Below are positions 1,773-30,293 of a stretch of DNA of 56,130 bases, piece after piece. The notes under the pieces are model-generated. The model had not been told where the DNA came from. It did not search any database and saw only the letters and a program-made list of their open reading frames with translations. Source of the DNA: Bacillota bacterium (lineage in GTDB: Bacteria; Bacillota; Dethiobacteria; DTU022). Position 1 is the first letter of the stretch. Each line of letters begins with the position of its first letter. Location of the stretch: the NCBI GenBank assembly GCA_033549065.1, contig JAWSUE010000015.1:1-56130 (forward strand). The letters run 5' to 3'. A program made the translations under genes and the position numbers.

Positions 1773-2834
1773 TTACGCTTTCTGGAATTGAGTCAACGCT
1801 TCAATCATGATGCTGATCCGGGCCGGTACCTGCTCATTTCGTGTAGTCCGGACCTTTTCAATAATGACATTTTCTTCGGCATTACGTAAATGATCCAGCA
1901 GTTGAAGTAGTCCCCTATAACGCCCTTCAAGCAGAATATCAAGTGGTACTTCTACCATCTCGCCGTTCTCTTCCGGCTTACCCTTACATCTTATTTCCGA
2001 AAGGCGGAGTCCGAATTCATCCGACAGTACTTCAAAATAGCGTAACACCTCCGCCTCTTCATATTCTTCAGGGAAAGCGATCTTGAAACTGTTGATCGGT
2101 ATATGGCAGTTGCGATCCATTGCATCCAGATCACCTGTGCAATCCTCAGTCGCTCTAAGGTATTCAACCTGGCTCTTGGTGAGAGCTGACTCTTCTTCTT
2201 CAATGGCCAGACTCAGCTCTCTTAAGTTGACTGAAATTAGAGAGAGGACTTTCTTTTGAATGTTACTCAGGCGATCAATCGATTTCCGGATAGTTATAAC
2301 ATCTTCAATAGGCAGTTTGAATGATTCGCGTTTCAGGCTTCGAATCGATGAAAGGTTTACATCTTTCATCGGCACACTGCCCGCCTGCATTGTTTCCAAG
2401 ATCCCCTGCTCTGCTATATTTACCTTGCCGGCTATCTCTTTTAGTGTAGGCAATGCCGCTTTTTTTTGAGCGAGCTCTTCTGTAGCGTTAATTACATCAT
2501 CCTGTAGTTTTTTCAACCAGTCGGGGATTTTAAATATATTCCGTGATCTTAGTTCCTGCCTTATTTCGTTGATAATGCAGTGTATAGCATAAGTACTGAA
2601 GAGAACTCCACGTTCCGAATCATAATTTTTCAAAGCGAGAATAAAACCTTCATTGGCAGCCCGGATTAATTTATTATCACTTTTATCATGGCTATAAATA
2701 CCGGCATAATAGGTAGCAATATCTCGTCCGATTTTCAATAGTTTTTCTTTTGATTCCGGATTTCCCTTATCAAGATATTCCTGAACAGCAGATTCAAGAT
2801 CCGGAAGGCTGTCTTTTTTATTATCTATAGCCAT
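1773..2834 (-). CDS. sigma factor regions 2-3 fused to a PilO-like domain
   Basis: 353 aa chimera. Residues 1-201 align along their length with the neighbouring sigma factor (LESAVQ.YL, NYDSERGVLFSTYA, INATEELAQK, ESFKLPIED, then IQKKVLSLIS). The match stops exactly where the helix-turn-helix of region 4 should begin. Residues 202-353 instead match the soluble part of the PilO encoded two genes upstream: VNLRELSLAIEEEESAL against MNLNELKAEIEEEEMAL, then PEE, LRYFE.L.DE, EGR and LDHL. The PilO transmembrane helix is absent, so the protein should be cytosolic. GAGGGG lies 6 nt before the ATG. It follows pilB in the operon, 49 nt after that stop. Without region 4 it cannot bind -35 elements normally. 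It may be a regulator, decoy or scaffold; its function is unknown. Confidence 0.9.
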   Translation of the reverse strand: MAIDNKKDSLPDLESAVQEYLDKGNPESKEKLLKIGRDIATYYAGIYSHDKSDNKLIRAANEGFILALKNYDSERGVLFSTYAIHCIINEIRQELRSRNIFKIPDWLKKLQDDVINATEELAQKKAALPTLKEIAGKVNIAEQGILETMQAGSVPMKDVNLSSIRSLKRESFKLPIEDVITIRKSIDRLSNIQKKVLSLISVNLRELSLAIEEEESALTKSQVEYLRATEDCTGDLDAMDRNCHIPINSFKIAFPEEYEEAEVLRYFEVLSDEFGLRLSEIRCKGKPEENGEMVEVPLDILLEGRYRGLLQLLDHLRNAEENVIIEKVRTTRNEQVPARISIMIEALTQFQKA

Positions 2835-2883: not shown

Positions 2884-4587
2884 TTAAATAAGCACCCTGA
2901 GTGCTTCTTCCATAGATGTAATACCCGTCTTTACCTTAAGAAAACCATCCTGGCGCAGGGTAATCATTCCTTCTTTAACTGCGTCCTTGGCAATCTCGCC
3001 GGAAGAACGGTTCTGCAGTGTAAGCGCTTTGATCTCGTCGCTGACAATCAACAGCTCGTATACACCAACCCGGCCTTTATAGCCGGTCTTACTGCAGCGG
3101 AGACATCCAACAGGTTTGTAAAGGATGACTTCATTTTCACCCTGTGAGAAAGGAAAGTCAGGGACTGATGTAAGCAGTTCTTTTTTACTGATCCGATATT
3201 CTTCCCGGCACAGTTTGCATAAAACCCTGACCAGGCGCTGGGCCAGAACAGCAATCACTGATGATGCGGTAAGATATGGTTCCACATCCATTTCTGTCAG
3301 GCGGGATATTGCTCCGGCAGCATCATTGGTATGTAAAGTTGATAGAACCAGATGACCGGTCAGGGCAGATTCAACAGCAATTTTTGCCGTCTCACGGTCA
3401 CGGATCTCACCGATCATTATAATGTCCGGGTCATTACGCAGAATTGAGCGCAGCCCGGATGCAAAGGTCAAACCCGCAGCCGGATTAACGTTGACCTGGT
3501 TTATCCCGTCAAGGCGGTATTCTATCGGATCTTCCACGGTGATTATATGCTTTTCTACCTGGTTCAACTCGGCCAGGGCAGCATAAAGGGTTGTTGTTTT
3601 ACCGCTGCCGGTAGGCCCTGTAACCAGAACACAACCATGCGGCGTATTGATCATCTTTCTGAAAAGTTTCAGCTTGCTTTCCGGAAAGCCAAGTTCCGAG
3701 AGTGTAATTAACTGCGCACTGCGGTCAAGTATACGCAATGTCAGCTTCTCCCCATAGGCAGTAGGCAGAGAAGCTACCCTGAAATCGATCGTTTTACGAT
3801 CAATCCGCAGAGAAATCCTGCCGTCCTGTGGAATCCGTCGGTTGGCAATATCCATATTACCCATTACCTTTATCCTGGAAACAAGTGGTGGATATAACCG
3901 GTATGGGGGATGCATCACTTCATGTAGTACCCCGTCAATGCGGAACCTGATACGCATGCTTTTTTCCAGCGGTTCAATATGAATGTCGCTGGCTCCGTCC
4001 CGGACAGCCTGGCTGAAGATCATATTAGCCAGCTGTACAGCCGGTTTCCCGACCGATACAGCCTGCACTTCCTCGTGCAATTCCGGTTTTTCATCTTCGT
4101 ACTCATCAGCTTCAAGTGTGGTGGAAGCCCGCGCAAACTGGTCTATAGCGGCCCGTAGTTCACTTCCGGGAACACAAACCGGCTTGACCTCATACCCGGT
4201 AATCAAGCGTATATCATCAATGGCCAGAATATCGTTGGGATCAAACATGGCCACGATCAGGCGATCATTTTCAAAACCGACCGGCAGGGCACGGTAACGT
4301 CTCGCTGAATCAGGGTCAATAAGGGCGGCTGCAGCGCTGTCGATCTTATTTGTTTCCAGAGAATAATACTCGACTCCCGCCCGGGCAGCCATCGCCCTGG
4401 TGACCTGCTCCTCCGTTGTAAAACCGAGCTCAATTAATGTCTGACCCAGCAGCTTCTTTTCCCCGTTACCCTTTGCCGACTCCTGGAGTTCAAGAGCTTT
4501 CTTAAGCTGTTCACGGGTAATCGAACCACTTTCAACCAGTAAGTGGCCTATTTTTTTACCGCTGCTGCTCATTTGGCTTGTTTCCAT
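2884..4587 (-). CDS. pilB: PilB-type pilus extension ATPase
   Basis: 567 aa from the ATG at 4587; a GTG at 4596 lies inside the AGAGGTG ribosome binding site and is a poorer start. The N-terminus is a GspE/MshE-N domain (about 15-150), followed by the T2SS/T4P ATPase core with Walker A GPTGSGKTTT, the Asp/His boxes, Walker B GEIRDRETA and a C-terminal four-cysteine zinc site (CKLC ... CLRC). It powers pilus extension at the cytoplasmic face of the PilC platform. Unusually, it is the last machine gene of the operon, after pilTCMNO, and is followed by the sigma-PilO chimera. Confidence 0.95.
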   Translation of the reverse strand: METSQMSSSGKKIGHLLVESGSITREQLKKALELQESAKGNGEKKLLGQTLIELGFTTEEQVTRAMAARAGVEYYSLETNKIDSAAAALIDPDSARRYRALPVGFENDRLIVAMFDPNDILAIDDIRLITGYEVKPVCVPGSELRAAIDQFARASTTLEADEYEDEKPELHEEVQAVSVGKPAVQLANMIFSQAVRDGASDIHIEPLEKSMRIRFRIDGVLHEVMHPPYRLYPPLVSRIKVMGNMDIANRRIPQDGRISLRIDRKTIDFRVASLPTAYGEKLTLRILDRSAQLITLSELGFPESKLKLFRKMINTPHGCVLVTGPTGSGKTTTLYAALAELNQVEKHIITVEDPIEYRLDGINQVNVNPAAGLTFASGLRSILRNDPDIIMIGEIRDRETAKIAVESALTGHLVLSTLHTNDAAGAISRLTEMDVEPYLTASSVIAVLAQRLVRVLCKLCREEYRISKKELLTSVPDFPFSQGENEVILYKPVGCLRCSKTGYKGRVGVYELLIVSDEIKALTLQNRSSGEIAKDAVKEGMITLRQDGFLKVKTGITSMEEALRVLI

Positions 4588-4670
4588 CCGGGACACCTCT
4601 TAGATAAATCGACCGCACAACTTGCTCATAGGCTGAACGAGCATTGCACGGTTACATAATCTTACCTATA

Positions 4671-15256: not shown

Positions 15257-15351
15257 TACCTGCTTCGGCAGCCAGGCTGCGTCAGCTTTTGACTGAGCGT
15301 CCCCGGCTTTGCGCCCCTGCCAAACGCAGAGTTGCCTTTGTCGGTCAGGTA
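15257..15351 (-). promoter_or_regulatory. c-di-GMP-I (GEMM-I) riboswitch before the minor pilin operon
   Basis: Minus-strand core: GACCGACAAAGGCAA, a P2 stem CTCTGC/GCAGGG with a TTT(G)-type loop replacing the usual GAAA tetraloop, GGCGCAAAGCC, a P3 arm (CAGTCAAAAGCTG), then GGCTGCCGA. P1 is TACCTG/CAGGTA. The missing GNRA cap means the tetraloop-receptor contact may be weakened. The G20 and A47 equivalents are conserved. Confidence 0.85.
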
Positions 15352-22889: not shown

Positions 22890-22927
22890 GTTAATAAGTT
22901 AGTAGTCAGAGTATTTTTTAAAACATA

Positions 22928-22955
22928 AGCCCCGGGTTTTGCTCCGGGGCTTTTT
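22928..22955 (+). terminator. intrinsic terminator of the acyl-CoA operon
   Basis: Perfect 8-bp stem AGCCCCGG / CCGGGGCT with an 8-nt loop, followed by five T, 39 nt after the last stop codon. Confidence 0.92.
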
Positions 22956-22995: not shown

Positions 22996-24978
22996 TTATT
23001 GCTCAGATATTTTTCCTTTTTTCTTTCTGGGGCGTCCATCGTCGTCTTCACGCATGTACCTCACTATTTTGACCAACTCGTAAATGATAATCAGGGCGCC
23101 CGGGACGAATATCAGCAGGATCAGTCCTTCCCTGGTCTGGACAAAATCCAGAAGATAACCGATATAGGGCACAGTATAAACCACCCTGCCAACAACATTT
23201 GCCGAAGGAACAGGGTTGGGATCGTTTGCGGGGTTGGCATCTCCGCGGGTAATATAGCTGTATCCGCCCTGGGTGCGTACTTCCACTACCCGGTGGGTTA
23301 CCAGTGAATCGGGGTTAACCGGACTGTGATAGGTGATTATGTCATTGGAAAAAATCTCCTGGGGTGGGGTTTCACGGACAAAGGCCAGGCTCCCCTTGTA
23401 AAATTCTGGGTTCATGCTGTCACTCATCACTATATACATTTCGTGTCCCGCTATCTGCGGGGCTCCTCCTGATATTCTGCTCTGAATCAGGAAGAATGAT
23501 AGTGTAGCCATCATCAGGAGAAGCAGGATAAAGATCAGGTTGCCAAAGATGGATAAAATTCTGGTTACTCCCCTCTTCGGGGCGCCTTTAACTTTTGTCG
23601 GTTTTTTTATCTTGTGAGGAACCGGTTCTTCGAGCACTTCTTCCGGTGGAGCAAATTGATCCAGTAAGGGTTTATTTATATCTTCATCGATGTGCAGATC
23701 TTCTTTGAGAATATCTTCCCCGAATAGAAAATCATCGGCCGATTTGCCAGGCAGGGATGATTGAATTTTTATTTCAGGCTGCTCTGCCTGTGGGACAAAT
23801 GGTTTTTCTTCCTTTAGTTCTTTATCGCCGAAAAGATCGTCAAAATACTGCTCTCCCTCTGTTTCATAATCAAATACCGGTTTATATTCTATATCCGGTG
23901 ATCCGGCATCGGGCAGCACTTTTTCGGAGCTTCCTTTTGCAGCCTTCCCATACGGCGTATCGACCATTTTTTCTCTGAATGATTCAAGAACTGAACTGTC
24001 CGGCTCCAGATCATCAACAGATTTACCGTTATCAAAAGTTGAGGCAAAAGCGCTGTTCTTGATCGGTGGCTTCGTGCCGAAAACATTATCGAATTCACTG
24101 GTGGCTGAACTGGCCGGTTCTTCAGGAGGGCTATCGTCAAACAGGCCGAAATTGAGATCTTCCTCTTTGACCGGCTCCTGAACCATTTCACCAACTGGTT
24201 CATCTTCACCCAGAAACTCTGTAGCCTTTTGTTCGCGAATCATATCCTCCGCGGTTTGTTCCTTATCTGGCACATCATCTGTTTCTCCGGTAAATGCCGG
24301 CTTGTATAGATCATCGAAGCCTGCTGTATCCAACTGTTCAAGTTCTTCTTCAAATTCAATCTCTTCAATCTCTATAACTTCCTCAATGTCTTCTCCGGCT
24401 TCTTCCTCTTTTACGGGCTCGTCAATTCCCCTGATAATTTCAGGTTCTTCTGTTTCTGCATAGTCCTGCAACTCTTCGATTTCAAGCTCCTTTTCTGCCT
24501 GGTCACTATCAGCTATAATTTCCTCAATATCGTGTCCGTAATAGTCTATCTTCTCGTATTTTTCCTCTTCTTCAAAATTTGAGTAGGGTGCCGAGATATC
24601 TACACCTGTTGATTTTTTCTTTTCCAAAATATGAACCCTGGCAATAAAGTCTTCCTTGCGGATCGGTTTAACCAGGTAGTCATCGATGGCATCTTTTTCA
24701 ATTACAGAAAATAGAGCATCAAAATGATCAGGTTCGATAAAGGCCAGAATATGGGCTCCATGGCTTTTAATTCTGAGGGTGCTTAACAGTTCAGCAGGAT
24801 CTTCATCAACCAGATCAAAATCAATTATAATCACATCCGGTTCTACTTTTCCCGCTAACTTACGAAGGGTATCAACGGAGAAGCAGCTTACAATATCTGC
24901 ATCGCTGGTTGTTTTCTCTAGCATTTTTTGAAGTTCAGCAGATGAGACAAAATTCTGATCTACCAGTAAAAGATACAT
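22996..24978 (-). CDS. receiver domain - acidic linker - type I signal peptidase fusion
   Basis: 660 aa. Residues 1-122 are a receiver-like domain: MYLLLVDQNF, IIDFD (Asp53/55) and YLVKP (Lys104). The usual acidic pair is reduced to one Asp and the Thr/Ser switch position is Ala. A Glu/Asp-rich disordered linker runs to about residue 470. A membrane helix (about 488-508) follows, then a SipW/ER-type S26B signal peptidase domain with SDSM (catalytic Ser521), THRV (His562) and RGDANP (Asp580), and a second helix (about 615-635) with a basic tail. GGGGGG lies before the ATG. It is downstream of the secreted transglutaminase. I know of no described protein with this layout. It may process a dedicated set of exported proteins under regulatory control. 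Confidence 0.85.
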   Translation of the reverse strand: MYLLLVDQNFVSSAELQKMLEKTTSDADIVSCFSVDTLRKLAGKVEPDVIIIDFDLVDEDPAELLSTLRIKSHGAHILAFIEPDHFDALFSVIEKDAIDDYLVKPIRKEDFIARVHILEKKKSTGVDISAPYSNFEEEEKYEKIDYYGHDIEEIIADSDQAEKELEIEELQDYAETEEPEIIRGIDEPVKEEEAGEDIEEVIEIEEIEFEEELEQLDTAGFDDLYKPAFTGETDDVPDKEQTAEDMIREQKATEFLGEDEPVGEMVQEPVKEEDLNFGLFDDSPPEEPASSATSEFDNVFGTKPPIKNSAFASTFDNGKSVDDLEPDSSVLESFREKMVDTPYGKAAKGSSEKVLPDAGSPDIEYKPVFDYETEGEQYFDDLFGDKELKEEKPFVPQAEQPEIKIQSSLPGKSADDFLFGEDILKEDLHIDEDINKPLLDQFAPPEEVLEEPVPHKIKKPTKVKGAPKRGVTRILSIFGNLIFILLLLMMATLSFFLIQSRISGGAPQIAGHEMYIVMSDSMNPEFYKGSLAFVRETPPQEIFSNDIITYHSPVNPDSLVTHRVVEVRTQGGYSYITRGDANPANDPNPVPSANVVGRVVYTVPYIGYLLDFVQTREGLILLIFVPGALIIIYELVKIVRYMREDDDGRPRKKKGKISEQ

Positions 24979-25098
24979 AATTTTCCCCCCTACGACTATA
25001 TGCTTTCACCTATTATAACAGAAATTATTCACAAAATTCCACCTTTACCATCTTGACCCGAAAAAATGAATAAAAGAGGCAACAAATTCTTCTATAGT

Positions 25099-26341: not shown

Positions 26342-26366
26342 TAAAAAGTCCCTCCTTCAGAGGGAC
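26342..26366 (-). terminator. riboswitch terminator overlapping the transglutaminase ribosome binding site
   Basis: Minus strand GTCCCTC-TGAAG-GAGGGAC followed by TTTTTA and then the ATG. The 3' arm is the Shine-Dalgarno AAGGAGGG itself, so the hairpin both terminates transcription and hides the site. The sequence TTGTCGGTC just upstream overlaps the 5' arm by GTC and is complementary to GACCGACAA in the aptamer, giving a plausible alternative state. Confidence 0.8.
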
Positions 26367-26381
26367 CGACAAAGTGAAACG

Positions 26382-26490
26382 AAAAAACCGGTTTCGGTAG
26401 CCAGGCTGTCTTAGCTCATTTACGAGCCTTAGACCCTTTTGCTTTGCGTCGCAGTCTTTCGACTGGTTTGCCATTGTCGGTCAGGTTTTT
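26382..26490 (-). promoter_or_regulatory. c-di-GMP-I (GEMM-I) riboswitch before the transglutaminase gene
   Basis: Textbook GEMM-I on the minus strand: GACCGACAATGGCAAACC, a P2 stem CAGTC/GACTG with GAAA cap, GACGCAAAGC, GGGTCTAAGGCTC, a P3 stem GCTC/GAGC, then GCCTGGCTACCGA. P1 is AAAAACC/GGTTTTT. The G20 equivalent is G. I see no convincing sigma-A promoter immediately upstream (26491-26613). Confidence 0.93.
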
Positions 26491-26613: not shown

Positions 26614-28101
26614 TTATGTCGCATAGAGATATACCGATATGGTAATCAGGATCATCAGGAGTGAGGCGGTTAAAATACTGCCGGTGATCTTCCTTGACCG
26701 TCCGTTTCCGGAAGGTTTATCAGTTTTTTCCAATATGATCCGCTTATCCTGCTTATCGGACTTTTTTGCTCTGAAGAAATACTCTACCCGGCCCTCCCCG
26801 CTCTTGTCGGTTTTATTACCAGTTGGTTCTGATTCGTTCGCTCCGAATATCTCCTCAAAAGTTTTGGAGTCAACTTTTTTCTGCTCAGCATGCATCCCGA
26901 ATAGCTCGGCATCTTCCAGCTTTTCCGGAGGGTTATCGAAGATGTAGAGAGCTTCTTCTCTTTTTGACTCTAAGACCTCAGGTTTTTCCTTATTTTTATT
27001 TTCAGGTTCAATAAAATCTTCTTTCAAATCTTCCGATTCGCTCTCTTCCAGCACTTGCTCATCCGAGCGGCTGTATGACCAATCATCAAAAAAGGTCTGA
27101 GAGTGACTTAAATCTTCATCTTTGGCTGCTGCTGTTTCCGGCCAACCTTCATTACTTTTCATCTCTTCCGTTTTTTCATCAGTTATCACTATATCAGTAT
27201 CTGCACTTAGTGAATGAACTATTTCCGGTTTTTCTTCAGGCTCCGGTTCTTCCACCACTTCCTCTTCAATTTCCTCTTCTACAGGAATGGTTACAATGTT
27301 GTCGCTTTCATCTGCTAAATCATCGGGATAGTCCAGGACCGGTTCATGGAAAGTTTCAAACTCGTCGACATCTTCTTCTAATTCGGATTTTTCATCATGC
27401 CCCTTCAGTTCTTCAAGATCCTCAATATCTTCCGGATCTTCCAGTTCTTCCAGTACTGCCGGAGTTTCTTCAATATTATCTTCAATCTCTCCTATAGTAA
27501 CTGAGTTGAGATCTTCATCATCATCGATATCCAGTACTTCGATTATTTCGATTTCATCTTCCACACTGAATTTTTGCCGGACGAAATAGTCATTACTTTC
27601 GTCAGAAATGTTGTAGATCTGCCCTACTTCTGCTTCTTCTTCCTCGATTTTCCTGGAAAAGGCGTCTGCCAGATCAATAAAGAGATCTTTCTGTTTAACT
27701 ACTTTTTCTGAGGTTACATTGGACTGATTATGCATTCCTTTACGCTGCAGCCCAAGCTTAACACGCAGGATTATATCCTCATGCTGAAGAGGTTTGACCA
27801 TATAATCGTCAATACCTATTTCGATTGCTTTGTAGAGTTTTGTAAAATGATCTGAATCGACAAATGCGAGGATGTAAGCCCCGGGACTAAATTTACGCAG
27901 CTTTTGAACTATGATCTCTGAATCATTGATATAGAAATCAAAGTCAATAACCACAATGTCGGGACTCAGCTTACCGGCAATGTCCAGAAGTGAATCACTG
28001 GAAGAGCATTTAAGAACTTCACAATCGATTTTGTTTCTATCCAGGAGGTTTTTAATCTCTCGTGATGAGATGTAGTTGTTTTCAACAAGTAGAAGATACA
28101 A
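26614..28101 (-). CDS. receiver-like domain with acidic linker and C-terminal membrane anchor
   Basis: 495 aa from a TTG at 28101. The longer open frame runs back through the riboswitch, and this start gives YLLLVENNYISS, matching the start of the paralogue at 22996-24978; GGTGGAG precedes it closely. Residues 1-118 are a receiver-like fold with IDFDF (Asp53/55) and YMVKP (Lys103), but the acidic pair is E-N. A strongly acidic low-complexity region (about 125-440) follows, then a basic stretch and a single C-terminal membrane helix (about 473-493). It looks like its paralogue without the peptidase domain, anchored by its tail. It has its own c-di-GMP riboswitch. Function unknown. Confidence 0.8.
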   Translation of the reverse strand: MYLLLVENNYISSREIKNLLDRNKIDCEVLKCSSSDSLLDIAGKLSPDIVVIDFDFYINDSEIIVQKLRKFSPGAYILAFVDSDHFTKLYKAIEIGIDDYMVKPLQHEDIILRVKLGLQRKGMHNQSNVTSEKVVKQKDLFIDLADAFSRKIEEEEAEVGQIYNISDESNDYFVRQKFSVEDEIEIIEVLDIDDDEDLNSVTIGEIEDNIEETPAVLEELEDPEDIEDLEELKGHDEKSELEEDVDEFETFHEPVLDYPDDLADESDNIVTIPVEEEIEEEVVEEPEPEEKPEIVHSLSADTDIVITDEKTEEMKSNEGWPETAAAKDEDLSHSQTFFDDWSYSRSDEQVLEESESEDLKEDFIEPENKNKEKPEVLESKREEALYIFDNPPEKLEDAELFGMHAEQKKVDSKTFEEIFGANESEPTGNKTDKSGEGRVEYFFRAKKSDKQDKRIILEKTDKPSGNGRSRKITGSILTASLLMILITISVYLYAT

Positions 28102-28144: not shown

Positions 28145-28246
28145 ATACCTGCTTCGGCTGGCCAGGCTATCATAGCTCCTCGGAGCGTTAGACCCTTTGG
28201 CTTTGCGCCCCTGCTTTTCAACAGGTTTGCCTTATCGGTCAGGTAT
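28145..28246 (-). promoter_or_regulatory. c-di-GMP-I (GEMM-I) riboswitch before the receiver-anchor gene
   Basis: Minus-strand core: GACCGATAAGGCAAACC, a P2 stem CCTG(T)/GCAGG with a GAAA-containing loop, GGCGCAAAGCC, GGGTCTAACGCTCC, a P3 stem GCTCC/GGAGC, then GCCTGGCCAGCCGA. P1 is ATACCTG/CAGGTAT. Only about 44 nt separate it from the TTG start, with no terminator seen, so control is probably at translation initiation. Confidence 0.92.
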
Positions 28247-28330: not shown

Positions 28331-28576
28331 TTACGAGACAATTTGCTTCTTTTCCCAGCCCTGAGTTTCCAAACTTTCCCCTCTTTTTTCAGCCGCTTCT
28401 TTTAAAGCTTCATTGATCAGGTGTCCCAATTCCAGGGCGCTTCTAAAAACAGAACTCTTTCGGCCATCCATCCACTGGATTGTCCCCTGCATACTTGCAT
28501 TCTGCCTGTATTGAACTCTTATATAGAAAGCCAGATCCTGTTCTTTCGGTTGATTTCTAGCGGGGTTATTTTTCAT
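28331..28576 (-). CDS. small conserved protein of unknown function (copy 1)
   Basis: 81 aa with no signal peptide or membrane helix. The core FYIRVQYRQNASMQGTIQWMDGRKSSVFRSALELGHLINEAL resembles short proteins of clostridia that often carry the phrase RQNA.WQG.I.W and FRSALEL. Predicted fold: a small beta sheet plus a C-terminal helix. GGGAGGGG lies close before the ATG. It starts 2 nt after the preceding small gene, so the two are coupled. I recognise the pattern but no known function. Confidence 0.75.
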   Translation of the reverse strand: MKNNPARNQPKEQDLAFYIRVQYRQNASMQGTIQWMDGRKSSVFRSALELGHLINEALKEAAEKRGESLETQGWEKKQIVS

Positions 28577-28578
28577 CT

Positions 28579-28830
28579 TTACCCCTCCCGGATAACAGCT
28601 TTTTCGGTAAAAGATCTCAGAAGCGTGTCACTCTGTGGAAAATCTTTCTCATCCAGTTTGTTTTGCATTAGCAGAAGCATTTCCAAAAAGTCATCAAAGT
28701 AATGAACCTGCCCGCTATGGATATGTTCAATTTTGCCTCTTACCGAAAAACCCTGCCCGCTTTTTATGCGGATAATGAAGTCGGAAAAACAGCTGTTGCG
28801 TTGATTTATATATTCAGTATTTCTTTTCAT
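28579..28830 (-). CDS. small protein related to its downstream neighbour (copy 2)
   Basis: 83 aa from the ATG at 28830, about 11 nt after GAGG; the open frame extends back to 28977 but would overlap the BTAD regulator. The core DFIIRIKSGQGFSVRGKIEHIHSGQVHYFDDFLEMLLLM aligns with FYIRVQYRQNASMQGTIQWMDGRKSSVFRSALELGHLI of the next gene. It lies between the BTAD regulator and its paralogue in an apparent three-gene operon. Function unknown. Confidence 0.65.
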   Translation of the reverse strand: MKRNTEYINQRNSCFSDFIIRIKSGQGFSVRGKIEHIHSGQVHYFDDFLEMLLLMQNKLDEKDFPQSDTLLRSFTEKAVIREG

Positions 28831-28930
28831 TTCAATTGATACCTCGCTACCATAAATGCTTAGAGATTTCTTAATAATAGTATACCTGTCTTCTGTTATA
28901 ACTTTGTTACAAGTAAATTCATTGCCGAAT

Positions 28931-30178
28931 TTAGTGGGCGAAGTGAAGGTCACCTTCCAGGGGAAGCAGTGTTTCAACCTTTTTATGCAGTTTCAATCCA
29001 TTTAATGAATTTCTCTTCAAGAAATTTTTCTCTGTTCTTTCCATAACTGTGATGGCCTGTTCCTTATTCAAGCCGGGTAACAGAAGCAGAAACTGTGCTT
29101 CATTCCAACGGCATGCAATATCTCCCTTGCGCAGGGAATCGAGAATCGCTTCCTGCAGGTTGTCCATCGTATCTTTCAGCTGGTCTCCACGGGGCATGGA
29201 AAAATCAGCCCTGGTAAGAGTCATCAGGCAGAGTAAGACAGATTTGCCGCTCCGTTCACTGCGCAAGCGTTCAAGTTTATAAAAATATTTGAAAAGCTCT
29301 GCATCGCAGAGGTAAGCTCCTTTAACTACATCTTTTCCTTTCAATCCCTCTTGAATTGTTCCCAGATCGAGTTCAAAACTGCCTGATTCAAGGCCGATTA
29401 AACGGTATAAGCTTTTCATGCTATCAGAAGGTTTAACACCCATTTCCTGGTAATAGGCCGAGGTCACTTCATTGTAGTGAGACCGGGCTCTTGTCGTCAT
29501 CCCCTCTGCCAGCAGAGCTTCAATCAAACGGATGTGGATCTTATCTTCATAATAGTCTAACGCTGCAGCATGTTCACAGAGTTTGATTATCTCGCCGAAG
29601 GCACGTCTTTCTTTGAGCAGATCGGCCAGTTCAAATACAGCATTTAGAAAAAGATTATGGTAGTATGTACGGGGAGCAATAACCCATTCACTAAATGATG
29701 TTTCCGGGAGATACTCTCCCTTATAGAGATTGATTGCCGACTGATATAAAGAAATTGCCTCATCTGGGGTTTTATCGATCAAAGAATGAGCTTTTGAGAC
29801 AAGCTCCTCAAAGATATCAGTGTCAATCCAGCAGGGAATATTATCTTCCCACCGGTAACAGCCCTGGGCAAAAACAAGATTGTCTGACAGGGATTCTCCG
29901 TGATTACCCATGTTCAGGCTTTTCCTTAATCTGAACATCTGGGCACGCATAACTGTACTGGGATCCCTATATTCTCTTTCCGGCCAGATACTTTCGAGGA
30001 TTGCTTCGGGGAAAAAGGTTTTATTGCGATTTGAAAGAATAAACTTGAATAATTCCCACATTCGCTTGGAACGGTGACTGCTCGCAGAGATAACCAGATC
30101 ACCCTGGCGTATAATAAATTTACCGAGTGTGTAGATACTTGCTGGATTTTCGGAGGTAGCTTCTGCGGGTCTATTCAT
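28931..30178 (-). CDS. BTAD/SARP-like transcriptional regulator with degenerate GGDEF-like C-terminus
   Basis: 415 aa from the ATG at 30178 (GAGG 6 nt upstream; a TTG four codons earlier is unlikely). Residues about 15-100 form an OmpR/SARP winged helix (FIIRQGDLVI, STVMRAQMFRLRKSL). Residues about 115-265 form a BTAD helical repeat domain (AISLYQSAINLYKGEYLPE, AEGMTTRARSHYNEV). The C-terminal 150 residues look like a nucleotide-cyclase fold: SLRKGDIACRWNEAQFLLLLPG resembles the GGDEF region with NEAQF replacing GGDEF, so it should be inactive but might bind a nucleotide. It heads the operon with the two small proteins, next to c-di-GMP-controlled genes. Confidence 0.78.
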   Translation of the reverse strand: MNRPAEATSENPASIYTLGKFIIRQGDLVISASSHRSKRMWELFKFILSNRNKTFFPEAILESIWPEREYRDPSTVMRAQMFRLRKSLNMGNHGESLSDNLVFAQGCYRWEDNIPCWIDTDIFEELVSKAHSLIDKTPDEAISLYQSAINLYKGEYLPETSFSEWVIAPRTYYHNLFLNAVFELADLLKERRAFGEIIKLCEHAAALDYYEDKIHIRLIEALLAEGMTTRARSHYNEVTSAYYQEMGVKPSDSMKSLYRLIGLESGSFELDLGTIQEGLKGKDVVKGAYLCDAELFKYFYKLERLRSERSGKSVLLCLMTLTRADFSMPRGDQLKDTMDNLQEAILDSLRKGDIACRWNEAQFLLLLPGLNKEQAITVMERTEKNFLKRNSLNGLKLHKKVETLLPLEGDLHFAH

Positions 30179-30293
30179 GATTATCCTCAAGAATCCTTAA
30201 TAAATATACGGATATACCAACTATCGTATTAATCAGTATACTTTACCAATTATGGTTTGTCCATGCCTATATTGGAATTTTTTGCAGATAGTT

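Follow-up and report, generated by a model that had tools for sequence, protein, structure and literature searches.

A receiver domain joined through an acidic linker to a SipW-type signal peptidase, often beside a non-catalytic sister copy, in a family of Bacillota

We describe a gene that encodes, in a single uninterrupted 660-residue reading frame with an ATG start, an atypical receiver, a long acidic linker and a SipW-type signal peptidase; this fusion recurs in related genomes, often beside a twin that does not cut, an arrangement suggesting that the cell couples the maturation of surface-matrix proteins to an internal signal. Our preferred reading, to which we give a probability of about 0.5, is that of an active SipW-type peptidase dedicated to matrix or adhesion proteins; its cytoplasmic head would dock or switch it, probably together with the non-catalytic sister. 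The combination of receiver, acidic tether and SipW domain, together with the non-catalytic twin, appears to be new; no published description of a receiver–signal peptidase fusion was found in the open-access literature searched, in keeping with the sequence-only reading of this DNA, which knew of no precedent for the architecture. The peptidase family of the catalytic part and the receiver fold of the head were already known. The window, that is, the whole stretch of 56,130 nucleotides that was analysed, has the features collected in Table 1; G-numbers denote genomes and L-numbers denote loci or contigs.

Table 1. Features of the fusion locus, with positions in the window and the evidence for each.
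Feature	Position	Strand	Evidence
Receiver–acidic linker–SipW-type signal peptidase fusion, 660 aa, type B copy	22996..24978	(-)	ORF, Pfam, NCBIfam, alignment, AlphaFold2
Atypical receiver head, residues 1-122	24613..24978	(-)	Pfam, fold comparison, residue check
Disordered acidic linker, about residues 123-465	23584..24612	(-)	pLDDT, composition, motif counts against shuffles, alignment
Peptidase: membrane helix 469-503, catalytic domain, membrane helix about 616-646	23041..23574	(-)	TIGR02228, residues, model, fold match
Terminator-like hairpin 3' of the fusion gene	22927..22952	(-)	Pattern match only, near chance overall
Conserved 29-bp promoter element GGAATTTTGTGAATAATTTCTGTTATAAT, extended -10 TGTTATAAT	25012..25040	(-)	Genome scan, shuffles, relatives
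Transglutaminase-core protein, N-terminal membrane/signal segment, 382 aa	25193..26341	(-)	PF01841, 54.9 bits; conserved beside the fusion
Hairpin between aptamer and transglutaminase ATG, holding Shine-Dalgarno AGGAGGG, then TTTTT	26347..26367	(-)	Pattern search
c-di-GMP-I riboswitch aptamer upstream of the transglutaminase gene	26393..26482	(-)	RF01051, 77.4 bits
Type A copy: receiver, acidic linker, one membrane helix, no peptidase; TTG start at 28101	26614..28101	(-)	ORF, alignment, trees
c-di-GMP-I riboswitch aptamer upstream of the type A copy	28153..28241	(-)	RF01051, 67.8 bits
Small conserved locus protein, 81 aa, no NCBIfam name	28331..28576	(-)	NCBIfam scan, locus comparison
Small conserved protein, 132 aa, related to the 81-aa protein	28579..28977	(-)	Domain scan, locus comparison
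Predicted regulator: Trans_reg_C-like, BTAD and partial GGDEF	28931..30190	(-)	Domain scan; conserved upstream of SipW loci

The sequence-only reading had proposed a receiver, an acidic linker of some 350 residues and a SipW-type peptidase in one frame, with Ser521 in SDSM, His562 and Asp580 between two flanking helices, and all of these elements were recovered by the reading frame, Pfam, TIGR02228, alignment and AlphaFold2. The TIGR02228 profile of signal peptidase I matched residues 479-636 with 120.8 bits (cut-off 51.85; 124.8 bits in a further scan), and the active-site residues are Ser521 (SDSM), His562 (THR) and Asp580 (RGDAN), together with Asp586; the profile, the active-site motifs and the two flanking helices all place the catalytic part in the ER/archaeal-type signal peptidase I family (TIGR02228, S26B). 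Against the Bacillus SipW equivalog NF046067 the fusion scored 141.1 bits, below the cut-off of 190. The AlphaFold2 model consists of a complete (beta-alpha)5 receiver, a helix (469-503), a beta-rich catalytic domain and a second helix (616-646), and the human SEC11C and SEC11A chains were the top Foldseek matches for the model as a whole. The two membrane helices predict an orientation in which the active site would lie outside the cell and the head inside. The fusion is the sole TIGR02228 peptidase of the window genome, where a LepB-type peptidase is also encoded.

Within the family, the receiver–peptidase fusion was found in 17 genomes of nine genera (the window genome and 16 others), giving 21 proteins, one of them cut by a contig end. 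Outside the family there are two further cases, which bring the total to 19 genomes: a 589-aa protein of a closed, single-contig 3.56-Mb genome assigned to a different family in the same class (L109 9228-10997), and a 313-aa protein of a genome from a different class (L116 5184-6125). Most other SipW-type genes found in the sample of the phylum have reading frames that are not long enough to encode such a fusion. A Chitinophagaceae contig, L003, came up in the genome-contig scan and was set aside, as its match covers only about 58 residues, where the head ends and the linker begins. The linker itself is predicted to be disordered, with pLDDT below 50 from residue 129 to about 465, and contains 30% Asp plus Glu and 10% Lys plus Arg over 347 residues. 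Its length ranges across the fusions from about 30 residues (L048) through about 110 (L050) up to about 440, and near its C-terminal, membrane end it carries a motif, LPGKSADDFLFG (LPGxSADxFLFG), that is present in nearly all type B copies and in essentially none of the shuffled linkers.

The head, which had been expected to model as a receiver, did so: Pfam Response_reg (PF00072) matched residues 4-115 with 30.8 bits (cut-off 30.2), and VIA-align comparison of the head with solved receivers gave Z values of 11.7-13.3 and rmsd values of 2.2-2.9 over 109-119 residues, so that both profile and (beta-alpha)5 fold assign it to PF00072. It retains Asp7, Asp53, Tyr101 and Lys104, in agreement with the earlier assignment of one pocket Asp, the phospho-acceptor region and Lys104, whereas Gln8 replaces the second acid and Ile81 replaces the Thr/Ser of beta4; the head therefore lacks the complete phosphorylation site of two acids, acceptor Asp, Thr/Ser and Lys. 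Among 32 heads compared, a set that includes heads joined to a histidine kinase, to BTAD or to a bare membrane anchor, Asp53 and Lys104 were both present in 31 and the first acid in 30, whereas the Thr/Ser was seen in four and the second acid in none. Both Asp53 and Lys104 have been lost from the distant fusions L048, L109 and L116, the last two of which lie outside the set of 32. No kinase gene was found in the locus of the fusion. In other families of the order, related heads are fused to histidine kinase domains (L099, L107), and in sister families a stand-alone SipW gene adjoins a pair of genes for a HisKA_3 kinase and a NarL-type regulator (L098, L101, L102); these arrangements support a link between two-component signalling and SipW. 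From its residues, phosphorylation of the head at Asp53 is possible; that Asp53 and Lys104 are both kept speaks for a switch in the long-linker family, and the absence of the Mg-binding acid and of the Thr/Ser argues for any switch being unconventional.

The same residues bear on the main rival explanation, in which the head, a degenerate receiver blind to any signal, would be purely a scaffold and, through the acidic linker, would dimerise the peptidase or dock it to a cytoplasmic partner such as the translocon, the pilus or the division machinery, with no phosphorylation involved. We regard this as possible but somewhat unlikely. It would accommodate the lack of the second acid in 32 of 32 heads and of the Thr/Ser in 28, the presence of CpaE-type receiver heads of pilus proteins among the fold matches, and the three distant fusions, which have lost Asp53 and Lys104 and yet keep the fusion beside SipW substrates. 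However, a pure scaffold needs neither Asp53 nor Lys104, and the two are near invariant in the long-linker family despite the variability of much of the rest of the head.

The type A gene of the window stops just after the helix equivalent to the first membrane helix of the peptidase. The same truncation is found in G030 (L034) and G029 (L057), and no readable remnant of a peptidase was present 3' of the truncated gene in the three frames of the gene strand, in the window, L034 or L057. Types A and B form separate clades in the head tree (support 81/81 for A and 99/97 for B) and in the peptidase tree (100/98 and 100/96), the fusion of the window falling in B; because the separation appears in both trees, the fusion was probably duplicated into the two types early, before these genera split. 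In four genomes (G012, G028, G041 and G042) the active site of type A is intact and type B is without both the Ser and the His, these positions being occupied by Arg/Asn, Asn/Ser, Asp/Gln and Glu/Gln. Consequently, exactly one intact peptidase remains in all six of the fully covered two-copy loci (G000, G012, G028, G030, G041 and G042), whether through a truncated A or a B without Ser and His. Since these loci are few, related and phylogenetically non-independent, the one-active rule is a pattern and carries no statistical proof. The frame of the G012 type A gene is broken in the linker, inside a poly-A tract, perhaps through a sequencing error; G005 is an exception of another kind, as the only copy found there is dead (Asp/Gln). 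Between G041 and G042, dN/dS for the dead type B pair was 0.11 in the head and 0.14 in the dead peptidase domain, compared with 0.07 and 0.09 for head and peptidase of the intact type A pair. Judged by these low ratios and by the promoter core that they keep (see below), the dead type B copies are not decaying.

The repeated loss of catalysis from one copy, with selection still acting on head, linker and membrane anchor, is also what would be expected if the signal ran from outside to inside, with the peptidase or the dead or truncated copy sensing the load of precursor and the head and linker reporting it to transcription, as has been proposed for Bacillus SipW. The BTAD regulator in the locus and the fusion of the same type of head to BTAD in G041 and G042 would fit such a route, as would the regulatory function of SipW on matrix genes that is described in PMC9486643. 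Nevertheless, the truncated copies have no extracytoplasmic sensing domain and the fusion itself has no DNA-binding domain, and we think this explanation improbable.

The 29-bp promoter element lies 33 nt before the ATG of the fusion and is the sole match in the 2.39-Mb window genome at up to three mismatches, with none in shuffled sequences. It precedes the start codon of type B in 12 other genomes, in which the core TCTGTTATAAT is invariant; the dead type B copies all keep the TCTGTTATAAT core, G012 and G028 keeping only this -10 core. In most relatives the upstream part of the element reads as an imperfect dyad, AGAA..TTCT. The window belongs to a draft assembly in 61 contigs, which was the ground for suspecting that separate response regulator and sipW genes had been joined by a sequencing or assembly error. 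This idea is refuted by the conserved promoter immediately 5' of the start codon of the fused frame, together with the same domain order in 17 genomes of the family and in the single-contig 3.56-Mb genome, and the fusion is therefore real.

The two riboswitch aptamers of the locus score well above the RF01051 covariance-model gathering score of 35, and the hairpin between the first of them and the transglutaminase gene is likely, from its position and sequence, to be the expression platform. The fusion may be co-transcribed with the transglutaminase gene behind that gene's riboswitch, or be expressed from its own conserved promoter. Relatives likewise carry aptamers of the c-di-GMP-I or c-di-GMP-I-GGC class, which lie in front of type A, transglutaminase and TasA/BsaA-like genes. 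Three further c-di-GMP-I riboswitches lie on the same strand (-) of the window, at 563-648 (upstream of an N_methyl pilin gene), 1601-1689 (upstream of a sigma-70 family gene, 812-1522) and 15264-15346 (upstream of a PilX/DUF7305 gene), and adjoin type IV pilus genes (PilB-type T2SSE, 2884-4596), so that pili and a sigma factor appear to be under c-di-GMP control in this genome. Next to this sigma factor, 1773-2834(-) encodes a protein of 353 aa whose sigma-70 regions 2 and 3 closely resemble it and in which region 4 is replaced by a C-terminal part weakly matching PilO (21.4 bits, under the cut-off of 22).

Several genes recur around the fusion and its relatives. The two small proteins of the locus belong to a family of mutually related small, unnamed proteins that accompanies BTAD-SipW loci across the class (also L110, L111, L112 and L113), and in G042 (L065 9247-10770) and G041 (L066 1705-2865) the BTAD regulator bearing the same receiver head is encoded next to an unfused BTAD gene. 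In several genera the SipW/TasA loci also include a gene for a PBP2-like transpeptidase (L046 12313-13944, L048 2469-4142 and L052 6388-8037), the first of these being assigned by a domain scan and the other two by similar N-termini and position. The fusion loci of relatives also contain proteins with TIGR04088/TIGR04090 SipW-type signal peptides, TasA/BsaA/camelysin-like proteins, and DUF7507 proteins that end in an LPRTDG-like (LPxTG-like) motif and a membrane helix. Proteins above the TIGR04088/TIGR04090 cut-offs were present in 19 of 43 family genomes, whereas no protein with a SipW-type signal peptide and no BsaA-like protein was found in the window's own genome, which is 97.8% complete. 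We also considered the transglutaminase-like neighbour as a substrate; it is not an obligate one, because the gene occurs without any SipW match in four high-quality genomes (G008, G014, G015 and G031), and its N-terminus has no TIGR04088 match.

It had been suggested that the fusion ties the processing of matrix or pilus proteins to a signal. The link to the matrix stood, through the TasA/BsaA-like genes beside the fusion in relatives and the c-di-GMP riboswitches of the locus; the head as a phospho-switch fared less well, and a SipW-type substrate was not found in the window genome. The sequence-only reading did not mention the neighbouring copy without a peptidase, the dead copies of relatives, the riboswitches or the dedicated promoter. 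Several findings count against the preferred reading: the missing second acid and Thr/Ser, the loss of Asp53 and Lys104 from three distant fusions, the absence of a kinase from the locus, the missing substrate, the transglutaminase gene in genomes without a SipW match, the sole, dead copy of G005 and the relatedness of the two-copy loci.

In the preferred reading, a long, flexible acidic tether would hold the atypical receiver in the cytoplasm to a dedicated SipW-type peptidase for surface-matrix proteins, and the head, alone or paired with that of the non-catalytic sister, would decide where or when the peptidase works. Such switching could proceed by binding of a partner or by phosphorylation of Asp53, and the non-catalytic copy would be a regulatory subunit. 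The locus would thereby make the export of matrix and adhesion proteins depend both on c-di-GMP, through the riboswitches, and on a second signal, through the receiver and the dedicated promoter. More tentatively, we propose a two-subunit, signal-gated peptidase, in which an intact receiver–SipW protein and its non-catalytic partner, either a dead peptidase or a bare anchor, might pair through their heads, the release of matrix proteins from the membrane being switched post-translationally by an intracellular signal.

Cleavage of the signal peptide is usually regarded as constitutive. A conserved cytoplasmic receiver on a signal peptidase, with a twin lacking the active site retained next to it, would lead directly from intracellular signalling to the processing of exported proteins, and a two-subunit gated peptidase, if correct, would mean that signal control acts directly on signal-peptide cleavage. 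The system allows one to ask whether export processing is regulated post-translationally and why pseudo-peptidases persist.

Of the known systems, SEC11A and SEC11C give the best fold and sequence match to the catalytic domain of the fusion and share its Ser-His-Asp type; they differ in being subunits of a multi-subunit complex and in having no receiver domain. The SipW proteins of Bacillus subtilis and B. cereus (MEROPS S26B; NF046067, TIGR02228) have in common with the fusion the Ser/His/Asp catalytic domain between two membrane helices and the nearby genes for TasA/camelysin-like substrates, which here lie in the loci of relatives. A regulatory role has likewise been reported for Bacillus SipW, which is reported to be bifunctional (Terra 2012, as cited in PMC9486643 and PMC4292775). 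The fusion, by contrast, adds the receiver head and the 350-residue acidic linker, scores under the equivalog cut-off and has a non-catalytic partner copy. Atypical receivers with an output other than DNA binding, such as CpaE/TadZ heads and single-domain regulators, share the receiver fold, the incomplete phosphorylation site and the coupling to surface-structure machinery; unlike these, the head of the fusion is covalently tethered to a membrane protease. Finally, SipA of Streptococcus pyogenes (4n31) matches the fold of the fusion model, although it is a bacterial-type (LepB-like) homologue with neither receiver nor acidic linker. SipA is described as being without the catalytic residues of a signal peptidase and is nonetheless essential for pilus polymerisation, having been kept for the assembly of surface fibres, and in this retention it resembles the dead type B copies.
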